A stretch of DNA of 5,903 bases from positions 1-5,903 of the forward strand of contig JALVIU010000060.1 of assembly GCA_027028665.1 (NCBI GenBank), written 5' to 3'. The DNA is from Candidatus Atribacteria bacterium (GTDB lineage Bacteria > Atribacterota > JALVIU01). Under the pieces are notes generated by a model, which saw only the letters and a list, made by a program, of their open reading frames with translations, was not told the origin of the DNA and searched no databases. Below are positions 526 through 5,903 of this stretch, piece after piece (the stretch's first letter is position 1; each line of letters starts with the position of its first letter). The position numbers and the translations under genes are program-made.

Positions 526-3135
526 TTAAATAATCTTCTGTTTTTCTAACCACTTATAAGTCAATACCTTGGCAAAATCGTTTACAGCCATCCATAAAAG
601 TGCATAAACCCATATGATTATAGCATATCTCCACCCAATAGGAGAGATAAACCACCCATATACGGCAAATAAAGTGGCAAGTACCTTTGTGGATAGAGCT
701 GCCCAGAAGAGAGATGAAGAAGGATACGGTTTTCTCCAGAAGGGCCCTTGTGTTCTTGTAAGGAATATGGTAAGATGTCCTGCTACAGCAAGTTTTAAGA
801 ATACAAAACTCTGAATCATACCAGGTGTAAGCTTAAAGAACTCCTTGGCGATATAGAAGATACCAAAACTTGCAATAACACCTAATATACCGAGCACTGT
901 AGAGACTGTTAGGATTTCTTTCATATTCCATCGTACGGGATAGTCATCGATCTTTGTTCTGTCATATGCAATAGCGAGAATAGGTAGATCATTCAGAAAT
1001 GCCAGAAGAATAATCATTAGTGCTGTTACAGGATAAAAATTAAAGACTAATATAGATGTTGTCATAAAGAATATAACCCTTAGTGTCTCTGTTATCCTAT
1101 ATATAGTGTAACTTTTCATACGTTCAAATGTAACACGTGCTATTTTTATTGCATTTACAATCACGGAAAGACCTGGTTCAAGAAGAGACACAGAAGCTGC
1201 TGCTCTTGCTGCATCTGTTGCACCAGATACAGCAATACCTGTATCTGCCTTTCTAAGTGCTGGTGCATCATTGACACCATCTCCTGTCATAGCAACAATA
1301 TGACCGCCACGCTGTAATTTATCTACAATGAAGTATTTATCATCTGGAAATACCTGAGCAAAGCCATCTGCACTCTCTATAAGCTCTATAATCTTTGACT
1401 CATGTCTTTTTACATACCCTTTGGGAAGGGGTATATTTGCTAAATAATCTCTTACTTCTCTTGTTACCTCTTTTGCAAATATTTCTACCTCTTTTTCATC
1501 TACACCTGGTTTTAGTTTTTTGTATATAGTCTTTGATATTATGTCAGAAAGCATTAAATATTCTCTATAGTCCCCACCTCTTAAGTCTTGTGCATCTAAG
1601 ATATTTGTACCAAGCCCCAATATTTCTGCAATGTGTTTTGCAATAGCAATATTATCACCTGTAAGCATTTTTACACTAAGATGTAGTTTCTTTGTTTCTT
1701 GTATCGTGGCCTTTGAGTCTTGACGAGGTGGGTCAAATAAAGGAATGAGGCCTATATATTTATATTCTTTTTCGTCAAGCTCTTTTACTGCAACGCCCAA
1801 TGTTCTAAAGCCTTTACTGGCAAGTTCATTTACAGGTCTTAATACCTTATCTTGTTCTATTGTCTTTATACAGAGATCCAATATTACCTGAGGGGCACCT
1901 TTAGTTACAATGAATCTTTTTCCATCTTTTGATTCTATTAATGCCTCTGTTCTTTTACTTATAGGATCAAATGGACTAAATTTTAATTGTTTGTAATTCT
2001 TTAGGTTTTCATATAAATTATGTTCCTTTAGATATTCAAAAATCGGGATTTCAATAGGATCCTTATTCTCCTCTCGTGAGGCAAGTGCACTATAAAAAAT
2101 CAGATCATCTGCAGTATAATTATCAAAAAGAATTGGATCAGATATTGTCATTTTATTTTGTGTAAGAGTTCCTGTCTTGTCTGAGCATAGAATATCAACA
2201 CCTGCAAGCTCTTCTATTGCTGCGAGTCTACTCACTATGGCCTGTTTCTTGGCAAGGTGCATAGCTCCAACAGCCATTGTAAGGGTAAGTACTGCGGGTA
2301 GAGCCACAGGTATAGCAGCAATAGTTAACACAAGAGAGAATCTTACGATATCCAGCATATCTTCATGTCTGAATAAGGCAGCAACTATAATCAGGGCCAC
2401 AAGTCCTATTGTTAAAAATATAAGATAATCTCCTACTTTGATGACTGCTTTCTGGAAGTGACTCTTTTCCTCTTTCTCTGCCTTTACTACAAGTTTTACA
2501 GTTTTCCCAAAGAATGTATCAAGTCCTGTGCCTACAACTACACCAATAATTTCTCCCTGTTTTGCAATAGAATTGGAATATATGATCTCATTTACATGTT
2601 TTGTTACAGGAAGAGATTCTCCTGTAAGTGCAGATTGATCTACCTGTATGTAGTCTCCTTCTATAATTTTTATATCTGCTGGGACAATGGCGCCAATTTT
2701 TACTTTCACTATATCTCCTGGCACTAATTCTCGGGCATCAATTTCTTTGAATTCCCCATCTCTGAGTACAACAGCCCTTTTCGCAAGCTTTCTTTTTAGT
2801 GCACTTAAAGTACTTAAGGCTTTGGATTCTTGCCAAAAATCTATAAATGCATTTGTAATAAGTAAAAGTGTGATAATTGTAAAATCTTCCCATTTTTGTA
2901 CTATTGCAGAGAGTATTGCTGCTATTTCAATCATCCATGGTATAGGTCCCCAGAATCTCTTAAATATCCTATGAAATAGTGTTTCTTCTCGCTCTGGTAT
3001 CTCATTTGGCCCATATTTTTTGAGTCGAATCCTGGCTTCTTCAGAAGAAAGGCCTTTCTCTTTATCTGTTTCGAGGATCTTTAATACCTCTTCTATATCT
3101 AATTTTTCATATTCTTTTAACTTATCCTCAGCCAT
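526..3135 (-). CDS. P3A-type (plasma-membrane H+-ATPase family) P-type ATPase, 869 aa
   Basis: This is an integral membrane pump that uses ATP to export a cation, most likely protons. Residues below are counted from the preferred start at 3135. An N-terminal cation-transporter domain is followed by M1-M2 (about 62-102, with N95), the A-domain TGES (171-174), M3, M4 with PVALP (276-280), the phosphorylation site DKTGTLT (D319), KGAP (412-415), TGDN (492-495), GDGVNDAP (618-625), and six further membrane segments. In M5, R686 (IYRITETLR), and in M6, D716 (FLNDLP), align with the proton-pathway Arg and Asp known from plant and fungal H+-ATPases, and N95 matches the M2 Asn. Those positions and the PVALP motif favour P3A over Ca2+ (P2) or heavy-metal (P1B) pumps. 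The protein stops soon after M10, so the long regulatory tail of plant enzymes is absent. About 50 extra residues lie before ADGFAQVFP. The second of two close ATGs is preferred because the AAGGAGG lies 8 bases before it but only 2 before ATG 3141 (871 aa). The cargo ion is inferred. Confidence 0.95.
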   Translation of the reverse strand: MAEDKLKEYEKLDIEEVLKILETDKEKGLSSEEARIRLKKYGPNEIPEREETLFHRIFKRFWGPIPWMIEIAAILSAIVQKWEDFTIITLLLITNAFIDFWQESKALSTLSALKRKLAKRAVVLRDGEFKEIDARELVPGDIVKVKIGAIVPADIKIIEGDYIQVDQSALTGESLPVTKHVNEIIYSNSIAKQGEIIGVVVGTGLDTFFGKTVKLVVKAEKEEKSHFQKAVIKVGDYLIFLTIGLVALIIVAALFRHEDMLDIVRFSLVLTIAAIPVALPAVLTLTMAVGAMHLAKKQAIVSRLAAIEELAGVDILCSDKTGTLTQNKMTISDPILFDNYTADDLIFYSALASREENKDPIEIPIFEYLKEHNLYENLKNYKQLKFSPFDPISKRTEALIESKDGKRFIVTKGAPQVILDLCIKTIEQDKVLRPVNELASKGFRTLGVAVKELDEKEYKYIGLIPLFDPPRQDSKATIQETKKLHLSVKMLTGDNIAIAKHIAEILGLGTNILDAQDLRGGDYREYLMLSDIISKTIYKKLKPGVDEKEVEIFAKEVTREVRDYLANIPLPKGYVKRHESKIIELIESADGFAQVFPDDKYFIVDKLQRGGHIVAMTGDGVNDAPALRKADTGIAVSGATDAARAAASVSLLEPGLSVIVNAIKIARVTFERMKSYTIYRITETLRVIFFMTTSILVFNFYPVTALMIILLAFLNDLPILAIAYDRTKIDDYPVRWNMKEILTVSTVLGILGVIASFGIFYIAKEFFKLTPGMIQSFVFLKLAVAGHLTIFLTRTQGPFWRKPYPSSSLFWAALSTKVLATLFAVYGWFISPIGWRYAIIIWVYALLWMAVNDFAKVLTYKWLEKQKII

Positions 3136-3143
3136 AAGCATAT

Positions 3144-3150
3144 CCTCCTT
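3144..3150 (-). promoter_or_regulatory. Ribosome binding site deciding the ATPase start
   Basis: On the minus strand these bases read AAGGAGG, a near-perfect anti-16S match. The gap is 8 bases to the ATG at 3135 but only 2 bases to the ATG at 3141. The downstream Met-Ala-Glu start is therefore the better choice. Confidence 0.85.
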
Positions 3151-3159
3151 TTTTTCTTT

Positions 3160-3188
3160 ATTATAAAATAACTAATGTTAAAATTCAG
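3160..3188 (-). promoter_or_regulatory. Putative sigma70-type promoter of the ATPase gene
   Basis: On the minus strand, 3165-3160 reads TATAAT, a perfect -10 box. Seventeen bases upstream, 3188-3183 reads CTGAAT, which matches the -35 consensus at only three of six positions. Transcription would start near 3153, giving a very short leader that barely includes the ribosome binding site. The weak -35 box overlaps the innermost of three tandem repeats (3181-3210), which would suit activator-dependent control. The region is AT-rich, so a chance TATAAT is possible. Confidence 0.45.
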
Positions 3189-3210
3189 TTAATTTAGGTA
3201 TAAATTAGGT
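3181..3210 (-). repeat. Three tandem 9-bp repeats (ACCTAAWTT-like), possible operator
   Basis: Read on the minus strand, the copies are ACCTAATTT (3210-3202), ACCTAAATT (3199-3191) and ACTGAATTT (3189-3181). Their starts are 11 and 10 bases apart, so successive copies fall on nearly the same helical face. They end just upstream of the TATAAT of the ATPase gene. Tandem direct half-sites with one-turn spacing are typical of OmpR/PhoB-family response regulators, but the motif is not one I recognise and no regulator is encoded in the window. Confidence 0.4.
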
Positions 3211-3274
3211 AATTTTTACAGAATACATTACATTTTGTACATATACATAGAAGACTTTTTGCTTTAATCATTAG

Positions 3275-3283
3275 TGGTATTGT
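3275..3283 (+). promoter_or_regulatory. Possible extended -10 promoter for the rightward exported-protein genes
   Basis: Bases 3275-3283 read TGGTATTGT, which fits the extended -10 form TGnTATAAT at the TG and at four of six hexamer positions. There is no good -35 box at the expected place (3255-3260 reads CTTTTT). The predicted leader to the ATG at 3361 would be about 70 bases. The call is weak because the whole region is AT-rich. Confidence 0.25.
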
Positions 3284-3346
3284 AAATAATAAAAACAGAA
3301 TTTTTACCAAAGAAAATTTTTTACATCTAAATAGGCAAAATGTAAT

Positions 3347-3354
3347 AAGGAGGT
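3347..3354 (+). promoter_or_regulatory. Ribosome binding site of the glycoside hydrolase-like gene
   Basis: AAGGAGGT is followed by six A residues and then the ATG at 3361. This is a near-perfect Shine-Dalgarno sequence at good spacing and supports the chosen start. Confidence 0.85.
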
Positions 3355-3360
3355 AAAAAA

Positions 3361-4866
3361 ATGAAAAAATTTTTAGTATTCACACTCATTATCCTTTCCT
3401 TCTTTATCTGGAGTCAGTCTGCAAAGGCAACTACATTTTCTGAAGACCCCCTTGGTATTGCATATGGTGCAAGATTTAGAGGGGAAAGTTTTATGCCTTA
3501 TCTTTATGAGATAGGTGTTCACAGGACCAAGATATCCTTTTACTGGGGAAACCTTGAGCCACAGGAAGGGGTATATGACTGGAGTATGGTAGATGCATAT
3601 CTTAACCAGGTAGGCCCAGATGATAAGGTATTGCTAAATGTATTTACCAATGGACCATGCACTAACCGAGAATCACTAAAGGGTGCTACCTTTAAAAATG
3701 AACATTGTAAAGAGGTATACAGGAAGTTTATTGCAGCACTTGTAAAACATACAAATGGAAGGGTAACGTATTGGCAAAGGGATACAGAGCCTGCATCTCC
3801 CCGCCACTGGCCAAAGGATAAAGCAAAAGAATATGTGGAGGTCCAGAAGATATTCTATGAAACCGTAAAATCTATACAGCCAGATGCTATAGTACTTGGG
3901 GTAAATCACAACGGAAATCTCACAAGAAATGGTGAACCCACAAGTAAAGAGTTCTTCTTATATGTAATAAAGCATGCAAAGGATTATTACGATATGCTTG
4001 ATGTAAGACTATATGGAGATGAGTACGATATACCTAAGAGAGTGGAGTGGTTTAGAAATGCAATGAAAAAGTATGGGTATGAAAAACCCATTGTTACCAC
4101 AGAGTTTGGAGGCCCAGATCCCAGGGCACTCTCTGGTGGCCTATTCCACAAATTGACACAGACTATAAGAAAAAGTGCAGGAATGGAAGGGCCAGGGCCT
4201 ATGCCACAAAGACCTAAAAAACCGGGACATAAACCAAAGGCAAAACCTAACTTTGAACCACCGCAAAATCCAGAAAATAGACCACAAGACAACTTCTGGA
4301 AATGGGTAAAGACCCATGGAGATGAGATCGATCCAAAGCTTCGCATTTTCTACACACTTCCAGGCTCAGAATATGATAAGATCCATGCCAATATACATTG
4401 CCATGATATAGTACAGAGACATATGATTGCATATGCATCTGGTATAACCCTTTCATGGTGGTGGAATCTCCAATCACCAGGGTGGGACCCCATATTTGGT
4501 AGAATGAGACTTATGGATATAAAGCGAGGTGTGAAGTTCCAGGGATATTACTGCTTCCAGAGGATGGTAGAGAAATTAGAGGGTATGAAGTCCATAGAGC
4601 GTATACCACTTTCAAATAAAAATATATATCTTTATATGATAAAAAAGGAAGGTAATGAGATGATGTATGTGGCATGGTACCATGATAATAAACTTGACTT
4701 TTATGATTCTTATATGGCAGCACCTACCAATATAAGGCTAACAATGATATTCAAAAAGGTAAAGATAACTGATATTTTTGGCAATCAGAGTATAAAAAAT
4801 ACAAATAATGGGATAATAAATCTAAGTCTAAGTGATACACCTATATTTATCGAAAATGCCTTATAA
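3361..4866 (+). CDS. Exported clan GH-A (GH39/GH5-like) glycoside hydrolase-like protein, 501 aa
   Basis: Residues 1-23 form a Sec signal peptide: KK, a hydrophobic core, then SAKA with likely cleavage after A23. The mature part looks like a clan GH-A (beta/alpha)8 barrel. It has an early strand HRTKISFYWGNLEPQEG with YDWSMVD (about 54-77), a candidate acid/base E143 in YWQRDTEP (strand 4), a DVRLYGD segment (214-220), and a candidate nucleophile E248 in VTTEFGG (strand 7). A Trp-rich strand 8, ITLSWWWNL, lies near 362-370. The two glutamates are 105 residues apart, normal for the clan. The C-terminus (about 420-501, DIFGN and LSDTPIFIE) resembles the small beta-sandwich often packed on such barrels. 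Two features are odd: T142 replaces the Asn that usually precedes the acid/base Glu, and residues 277-308 form a Lys/Pro-rich insertion. Four Cys (C100, C116, C347, C398) could form disulfides outside the cytoplasm. The substrate is unknown; the context suggests an exopolysaccharide or cell-wall glycan. The next gene starts 11 bases after the stop, so an operon is likely. Confidence 0.82.
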   Translation: MKKFLVFTLIILSFFIWSQSAKATTFSEDPLGIAYGARFRGESFMPYLYEIGVHRTKISFYWGNLEPQEGVYDWSMVDAYLNQVGPDDKVLLNVFTNGPCTNRESLKGATFKNEHCKEVYRKFIAALVKHTNGRVTYWQRDTEPASPRHWPKDKAKEYVEVQKIFYETVKSIQPDAIVLGVNHNGNLTRNGEPTSKEFFLYVIKHAKDYYDMLDVRLYGDEYDIPKRVEWFRNAMKKYGYEKPIVTTEFGGPDPRALSGGLFHKLTQTIRKSAGMEGPGPMPQRPKKPGHKPKAKPNFEPPQNPENRPQDNFWKWVKTHGDEIDPKLRIFYTLPGSEYDKIHANIHCHDIVQRHMIAYASGITLSWWWNLQSPGWDPIFGRMRLMDIKRGVKFQGYYCFQRMVEKLEGMKSIERIPLSNKNIYLYMIKKEGNEMMYVAWYHDNKLDFYDSYMAAPTNIRLTMIFKKVKITDIFGNQSIKNTNNGIINLSLSDTPIFIENAL

Positions 4867-4877: not shown

Positions 4878-5903
4878 ATGAGTATCAGGATGGTAAAAGT
4901 TATTGTCATACTTTTGGCCCTATGGGTACTTATTATGCCTACCAATGGTTATGGTTCATCAAGATTTTTGTGGAGGATGAAGATAGGGGATATGATAACA
5001 ACCACACCTCTTATATACAAAGACTTTTTGTACATCCAGACCTCTGGTTATCTCTGGATACTTGATAAAAAGACCAAAACAGTGAAGCAGATGGTGAAAA
5101 CTGCTAAAACATCAGATGCATCTCCCCTTATAGTAGGTGATACCATCTACCTTATAAGGGAGAAGGGTGATGGGTTTTATATTCAGGCCTATAGCTTGCT
5201 TACAGCCAGGATGTTGTGGGAGATTGGATTGGGCAAGTATGACAATATCTTTACCCCAGCTGGAAGGGATGATCTTATATATACAGTCTGTACCAAAGAT
5301 GAGGGAAAATCTACCGTATTTGCTGTATCGAAAACTACGGGAGGGCTCATATGGAGGGCATTTCTTGACTCATATGTGGCAAATCCCCTCTCTGTATCAG
5401 AAGATGCGGTATATGTAGGGACAGACGATGGAAACCTATATGCACTCTCCAGGGATAATGGAAAGCTAAAGTGGAATTTCTTTATAGAGGGGGCAAAAAT
5501 GGACTCTCCAATACATAAAGAAATTGGTACAACTGCAGGTATATGTAAAGATACGGTATATGTAGGTAGTGAAGATACAAACTTCTATGCAATAGATAGA
5601 AAGACAGGAAACCTAAAGTGGAAATTTGCCACATATGGAGGACAGGTTGCATCCCCCGCTATAGATGATGATACTGTATATGTGGCAAGTAAAGATGGAT
5701 TTTTATATGCACTATCTAAGGAAGATGGGGCCTTGAAGTGGAAATATGAAACAGGCTATCGGGTATTTTCATCTCCTATCATTTCAGGTGATTATGTATA
5801 TATAGGTGATACATCTGGTATAGTCCATGAGATAAAAAAGGACACAGGAAAGGTGGTATGGAGGTTTGACATTGATCTTCATAAGGATGATCCTATCCCA
5901 CCG
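4878..5903 (+). CDS. Exported PQQ-like (PQQ/WD40-type) beta-propeller repeat protein, 3' truncated
   Basis: The frame stays open for 342 codons to the window edge, with no stop. Residues 1-26 look like a Sec signal peptide (basic start, hydrophobic residues 8-20, likely cleavage after NGYG). There is no lipobox Cys, so it is not a BamB-type lipoprotein. The rest consists of PQQ-like blades with the pattern YVGxxDGxLYALxxxxGxxxW. Clear copies have their YVG/YVA/YIG at residues 179, 228, 268 and 308. More diverged copies lie near 51, 91 and 135, and DDPIPP at the end looks like the opening of an eighth blade. An early strand, SRFLWRMKIGD, could close the ring with the last blade. Such propellers serve as scaffolds for protein or ligand binding; quinone binding or dehydrogenase activity cannot be claimed because no metal or quinone ligands are identifiable. 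No promoter or terminator separates it from the hydrolase-like gene, so co-transcription is likely. Confidence 0.88.
   Translation, partial: MSIRMVKVIVILLALWVLIMPTNGYGSSRFLWRMKIGDMITTTPLIYKDFLYIQTSGYLWILDKKTKTVKQMVKTAKTSDASPLIVGDTIYLIREKGDGFYIQAYSLLTARMLWEIGLGKYDNIFTPAGRDDLIYTVCTKDEGKSTVFAVSKTTGGLIWRAFLDSYVANPLSVSEDAVYVGTDDGNLYALSRDNGKLKWNFFIEGAKMDSPIHKEIGTTAGICKDTVYVGSEDTNFYAIDRKTGNLKWKFATYGGQVASPAIDDDTVYVASKDGFLYALSKEDGALKWKYETGYRVFSSPIISGDYVYIGDTSGIVHEIKKDTGKVVWRFDIDLHKDDPIPP

Follow-up and report, generated by a model that had tools for sequence, protein, structure and literature searches.

Organisation of the locus

The window, that is, the whole stretch of 5,903 nucleotides analysed here, is an entire contig (C60) of a bin comprising 413 contigs. 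A gene for a pyridine nucleotide-disulphide oxidoreductase lies at its left end, and a P-type proton-efflux-like ATPase is encoded on the reverse strand (526–3141), upstream of the gene that is the main subject of this study. The latter (3361–4866, forward strand) is preceded by a strong Shine–Dalgarno sequence (AAGGAGGTAAAAAAATG) and specifies a secreted protein of 501 amino acids with a barrel of the clan GH-A type. The gene for a secreted BamB/PQQ-type β-propeller (4878–5903, forward strand) starts 11 bp past the stop of the barrel gene and runs off the contig end. Barrel and propeller genes probably form one operon.

Among 50 genomes of the phylum, the closest relative of the ATPase is only 44% identical and occurs in one genome, which suggests, as far as sequence identity is a guide, that the ATPase was acquired by horizontal transfer. 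The same lack of close kin (44% at best) raised the suspicion that the 5.9 kb contig had been misbinned, an explanation that was dropped because the contig agrees with its bin in tetranucleotide usage (0.93). No homologue of the barrel protein was found among the 50 genomes of its own phylum, the weak matches including GH42-type barrels.

Architecture of the barrel protein

The first 23 residues (3361–3429) were recognised by eye as a Sec-type signal peptide (MKKFLVFTLIILSFFIWSQSAKA), within which residues 2–20 are modelled as a helix of low pLDDT. A (β/α)8 barrel (residues 31–405; 3451–4575) and a C-terminal β domain (residues 409–499; 4585–4857) follow, as delineated in an AlphaFold2 model built from an alignment of 11 rows (pLDDT 83.3, pTM 0.85). 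The eight strands of the modelled barrel start at residues 31, 55, 89, 137, 177, 212, 244 and 362. In the gap between strands 7 and 8, a Pro/Lys-rich insert (residues 277–303; 4189–4269; GPGPMPQRPKKPGHKPKAKP) is predicted to be disordered (pLDDT < 50), and an insert of basic character occupies the corresponding position in the Aminicenantes homologues. Such a basic insert could bind an anionic polymer.

The solved structure closest to the model is that of PslG, a GH39-like endoglycosidase of Pseudomonas aeruginosa (PDB 4ZN2, 5BX9 and 9G17; Z 29.6, rmsd 2.8, 367 residues, 14% identity). It is followed by BcGH39 of Bacteroides cellulosilyticus (PDB 5JVK; Z 29.0, 358 residues aligned, 18% identity), and GH30, GH164 and other GH39 enzymes come next at a Z of about 23. 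With such a barrel and with clan GH-A enzymes as its top structural matches, the protein was rightly assigned to this clan in the initial annotation.

PslG and the window protein share the barrel, the C-terminal β domain, acid/base and nucleophile Glu residues following strands 4 and 7, and a secreted or periplasmic location. A profile match to PslG (E 8e-6) aligns E143 and T142 with the Glu and the Asn, respectively, of the QVWNEP motif; these two are taken to be Glu165 and Asn164. In a PslG complex, Asn164 forms a bond with the sugar ring in −1, and the residue that bears the covalent label is Glu276 (PMC11912335). The window protein differs in that T142 occupies the position from which Asn164 contacts the −1 sugar, and in that the strand-2 Arg is replaced by Lys. 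BcGH39 differs from it, too, in having the canonical WNEP motif.

The predicted active site

The acid/base site reads DTEP in place of NEP, as had been noticed initially: residues W138 to P144 (WQRDTEP, within YWQRDTEP) are encoded at 3772–3792. The residue numbers assigned earlier to T142, E143 and E248 agree with the translation of 3361–4863, but the start given for the motif, 3775, falls inside it. E143 (3787–3789), the predicted general acid/base, is situated just past strand 4 (137–140), and E248 (TTEFGG; 4102–4104), the predicted nucleophile, at the end of strand 7 (244–249). Three lines of evidence support this assignment: BLAST alignments with enzymes that have the canonical WNEP/TE, the PslG profile alignment, which spans the acid/base, and the strands of the model. 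T142 (3784–3786) replaces the Asn of clan GH-A according to both the alignments and the PslG profile match.

Distribution of the family

For an unbiased sample of position 142, a DNA pattern covering the motif around the nucleophile, KPIxxTE[F/Y]GGP, was run against 85,000 species genomes. Eight of the 19 matches are full-length relatives of the window protein (27–43% identity, tblastn), originating from two Aminicenantes, two Desulfobacterales, one Acidobacteriaceae, two Bryobacterales and one Bacteroidetes MAG; the remaining 11 either are barrels with the canonical NE or match weakly. Three further members (L045, L055 and L056) were added by profile searches, bringing the family to 12, including the window protein. 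It is rare and patchily distributed: phylum- or order-wide profile searches of well over a thousand (>1,000) genomes recovered a full-length member in just two new genomes, besides those known from the pattern scan.

The 8-mers of the window protein had no match among genome contigs and viral contigs, a PHROGs search with the protein had none either, and the family alignment detected no member among viral contigs. Plasmid and phage collections yielded distant canonical GH-A proteins only. Three viral-contig matches to the pattern YWQxD[N/T]EP were judged to be due to chance.

Conservation of the predicted active site

Alignment and tree were based on 11 members, with L023 left out as a near-copy of L027 containing ambiguous bases. 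The aligned members are 26–44% identical to the window protein and form a single clade in the maximum-likelihood tree (support 100/99). E143, E248, W62, E66, the strand-6 Tyr Y218 (4012–4014), the strand-8 Trp W368 (4462–4464) and the GGP following the nucleophile are invariant among them. The description of the Trp-rich strand 8 as intact (S365-WWW-N369; 4453–4467) holds for W368, but position 366 is Trp in 8 of the 11 aligned members, and position 367 varies.

In none of the 12 members is position 142 Asn. It is Thr in six (the window protein, L022, L035, L033, L055 and L056), Ser in L027 and L023, Trp in L029 and L045, Cys in L031 and Ala in L019. The six Thr proteins make up a subclade (96/98, maximum likelihood). 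With regard to the conservation of T142 in homologues, an issue raised by the initial annotation, Thr is thus fixed in one subclade only, and the family-wide trait is the absence of Asn. Related barrels outside the family have Asn at this position in nearly all cases, the exceptions with Ser or Asp being L058, L060 and L029c.

Two further positions change along with it. The strand-2 residue K57 (3529–3531), which corresponds to an Arg in almost every related canonical protein, is Lys, His or Leu within the family. In strand 6, R216 (4006–4008) takes the place of a His that is present in canonical relatives and retained in both W142 members; Arg is found there in every T/S/C/A142 member of clean sequence, and the ambiguous sequence of L023 reads Gly. 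The linked changes at 216 and 142 may represent a single evolutionary event.

Because homologues at 35–44% identity retain both Glu residues and also lack the Asn, T142 is neither a sequencing slip nor a chance occurrence. Judging from these sequences, the loss of the Asn is old and maintained and not a sign of decay, which upholds the earlier view that a distinct family is likelier than decay.

The main rival explanation, although an unlikely one, is a non-catalytic, glycan-binding barrel, the cleft of which would bind polysaccharide during export or at the cell surface, hydrolysis having been lost together with the Asn, the strand-2 Arg and the strand-6 His. All three are usual GH-A active-site residues, and such a pseudo-enzyme would also fit the related paralogues L058 and L029c, which are altered at both the Asn and the nucleophile. 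In GH158, moreover, replacement of the equivalent Asn, N136, by Ala abolished activity (PMC7157763); therefore, loss of this residue could mean loss of the classic activity. However, a barrel of the lectin type has usually lost one Glu, which seems to apply to L058 and L029c, whereas both catalytic Glu residues, Y218 and W368 are invariant in this family across several phyla. With the catalytic pair invariant, a role confined to glycan binding is less likely.

Outside the family, L058 (421–1905, reverse strand) and the L029 gene at 1577–3478 (forward strand) belong to a neighbouring GH-A-type clade with Ser or Asp for the Asn. By eye, the nucleophile position of this clade is an Asp in a GD motif (VGDA or AGDT), and its members are possibly non-catalytic barrels, going by sequence. 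Another GH-A-type protein outside the family, L060 (1426–2640, forward strand), has WSEP for WNEP; its source and that of the Aminicenantes homologue belong to one phylum.

Class assignment

By its modelled fold and its predicted catalytic pair, with invariant Glu residues past strand 4 and at the end of strand 7, the protein is of the clan GH-A type; it lacks the Asn signature before the acid/base, as do all 12 members (T/S/C/A/W). This Asn is usual yet not universal in the clan, since GH26 has His. GH26 thus offers a precedent for a clan GH-A enzyme without Asn at the acid/base site, but it differs in the residue and in the family, and no GH26 match was seen.

No Pfam or NCBIfam model matches the window protein above its cut-off, in agreement with the initial suggestion of a distinct family. 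The GH42/GH35 scores are sub-threshold (15.6/21 bits and 18/500 bits; Pfam/NCBIfam), and the similarity to these β-galactosidases is a weak local match in the W..LEP..G..DW region only, which does not span the active site. GH42 and GH35 enzymes carry DNE/ENE. A known GH family that normally has Thr or Ser at position 142 was not encountered in Pfam, NCBIfam or PDB profiles, and a literature search for a described clan GH-A family without the Asn found nothing relevant. A new GH family is not thereby proven, being set apart by Pfam, NCBIfam and PDB profiles only.

The fold and the profile match might also point to nothing more than a distant GH39/PslG-like hydrolase of the ordinary kind, with Thr taking the place of Asn and no change in substrate class or chemistry. 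PslG and BcGH39 are indeed the best fold matches, and the domain layout is that of PslG (Z 29.6). Nevertheless, identity to these enzymes amounts to only 14–18%, and Pfam Glyco_hydro_39 matches none of the family members at E 0.1 or better. In addition, the Arg, the Asn and the His change together, the replacement of His by Arg being common to the T/S/C/A members of clean sequence. Such a simple substitution is therefore considered improbable. As far as model and sequence go, the protein is PslG/GH39-like in its fold but not with respect to sequence thresholds or the −1 subsite Asn164, for which it has T142.

Less probable still, and very unlikely, is a substrate-assisted mechanism acting on a 2-acetamido sugar, with D141-x-E143 as the D/N-x-E pair of GH18, GH56 and GH85 and another role for E248. 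The D/N-x-E pair is preserved, as position 141 is Asp in 10 of the 11 aligned members and Asn in the other, and an acetamide at C2 would remove the need for a contact to the 2-hydroxyl. Yet E248 in strand 7, where enzymes of the substrate-assisted type have no nucleophilic Glu, is invariant, as expected of a classical nucleophile, and Asp or Glu also occurs at this place in canonical DNE/ENE proteins of the GH-A type (L029 3478–5238, LDNEAD; L005, DNE). It is because Asp also precedes the canonical NE in relatives that this mechanism is ranked low.

Genomic context of the family members

In two Desulfobacterales genomes (members L033/L045 and L031, respectively), the family gene is part of an exopolysaccharide cluster, as is pslG. 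These clusters contain a Wzy_C polymerase/ligase, MurJ or Polysacc_synt flippases and GNVR chain-length proteins, to which the cluster of L031 (L099) adds glycosyltransferases, a WecG-type transferase, a polysaccharide deacetylase and a GH39 gene. One Desulfobacterales genome has two family members 6.6 kb apart, one of the T and one of the W type. Among the genomes examined, the exopolysaccharide context is limited to these two; the Aminicenantes and Acidobacteria members are not located in exopolysaccharide clusters, and the only partner of the window's barrel gene is the β-propeller gene.

Propellers recur as neighbours of the L098 family gene and of the window barrel gene. In L098, large proteins adjoining the family gene include an LVIVD-repeat propeller fused to a metalloenzyme/phosphodiesterase domain (6074–9820) and a Sortilin/BNR propeller (533–2980). 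Several type I phosphodiesterase-like genes lie inside both Desulfobacterales exopolysaccharide clusters (L098 and L099). The Bacteroidetes MAG has three tandem GH-A-type barrel genes (L102, 1577–7013) with the acid/base contexts GDEP, DNEA and NWEA, the last of which is the family member.

Proposed mechanism

The barrel gene of the window is probably not broken but codes for a functional enzyme whose sugar pocket is altered. In the reading that we favour, and hold to have a somewhat better than even chance of being right, the secreted protein is a retaining glycosidase of the clan GH-A type, with endo or exo action and with PslG/GH39 as its nearest kin in fold. It would represent a small family of its own, have a remodelled −1 subsite and probably act on exopolysaccharide. 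A working retaining glycosidase is proposed because the Glu pair, the Tyr and the Trp are kept, and a rebuilt −1 subsite because the Arg, the Asn and the His are lost in coordination.

In this retaining glycosidase, E143 would protonate the leaving group and E248 would attack C1 in a double displacement. T142 would not grip the 2-hydroxyl in the manner of Asn, and R216 in strand 6 might supply charge or hydrogen bonding near the nucleophile or the sugar, replacing the strand-2 Arg and the Asn. The −1 subsite would thereby suit a sugar with a substituted, inverted, deoxy or anionic C2. In the simplest case, the sugar would be without the usual free equatorial 2-hydroxyl, with R216 compensating for it.

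The probable substrate would be an exopolysaccharide of bacterial origin, which the enzyme would trim while the polymer is exported or afterwards, as PslG trims Psl. The hydrolytic activity of PslG has been reported to be necessary for normal Psl production, although the same paper notes a dispute on this point (PMC6813494). Trimming is proposed because three members sit in exopolysaccharide clusters; by analogy with PslG, it is probable but weakest for the window protein, the neighbour of which is a β-propeller gene.

A more far-reaching proposal, to which we give somewhat less than an even chance, is a new GH family built on the scaffold of clan GH-A. It would have exchanged three residues, namely the strand-6 His, the strand-2 Arg and the Asn that is nearly universal elsewhere, and an Arg would have moved to strand 6. 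Its −1 subsite would accept sugars lacking a free equatorial 2-hydroxyl, or its mechanism would be modified, and it would act on bacterial exopolysaccharides.

Significance

Few signatures of the largest glycosidase clan are as constant as the Asn-Glu pair. A natural family that occurs in several phyla without the Asn, and has kept both catalytic Glu residues, provides a direct test of the role of this Asn and of how a −1 subsite can be rebuilt. If active, its members are likely to cut glycans beyond the reach of existing enzymes and may define a new CAZy family tied to exopolysaccharide assembly.
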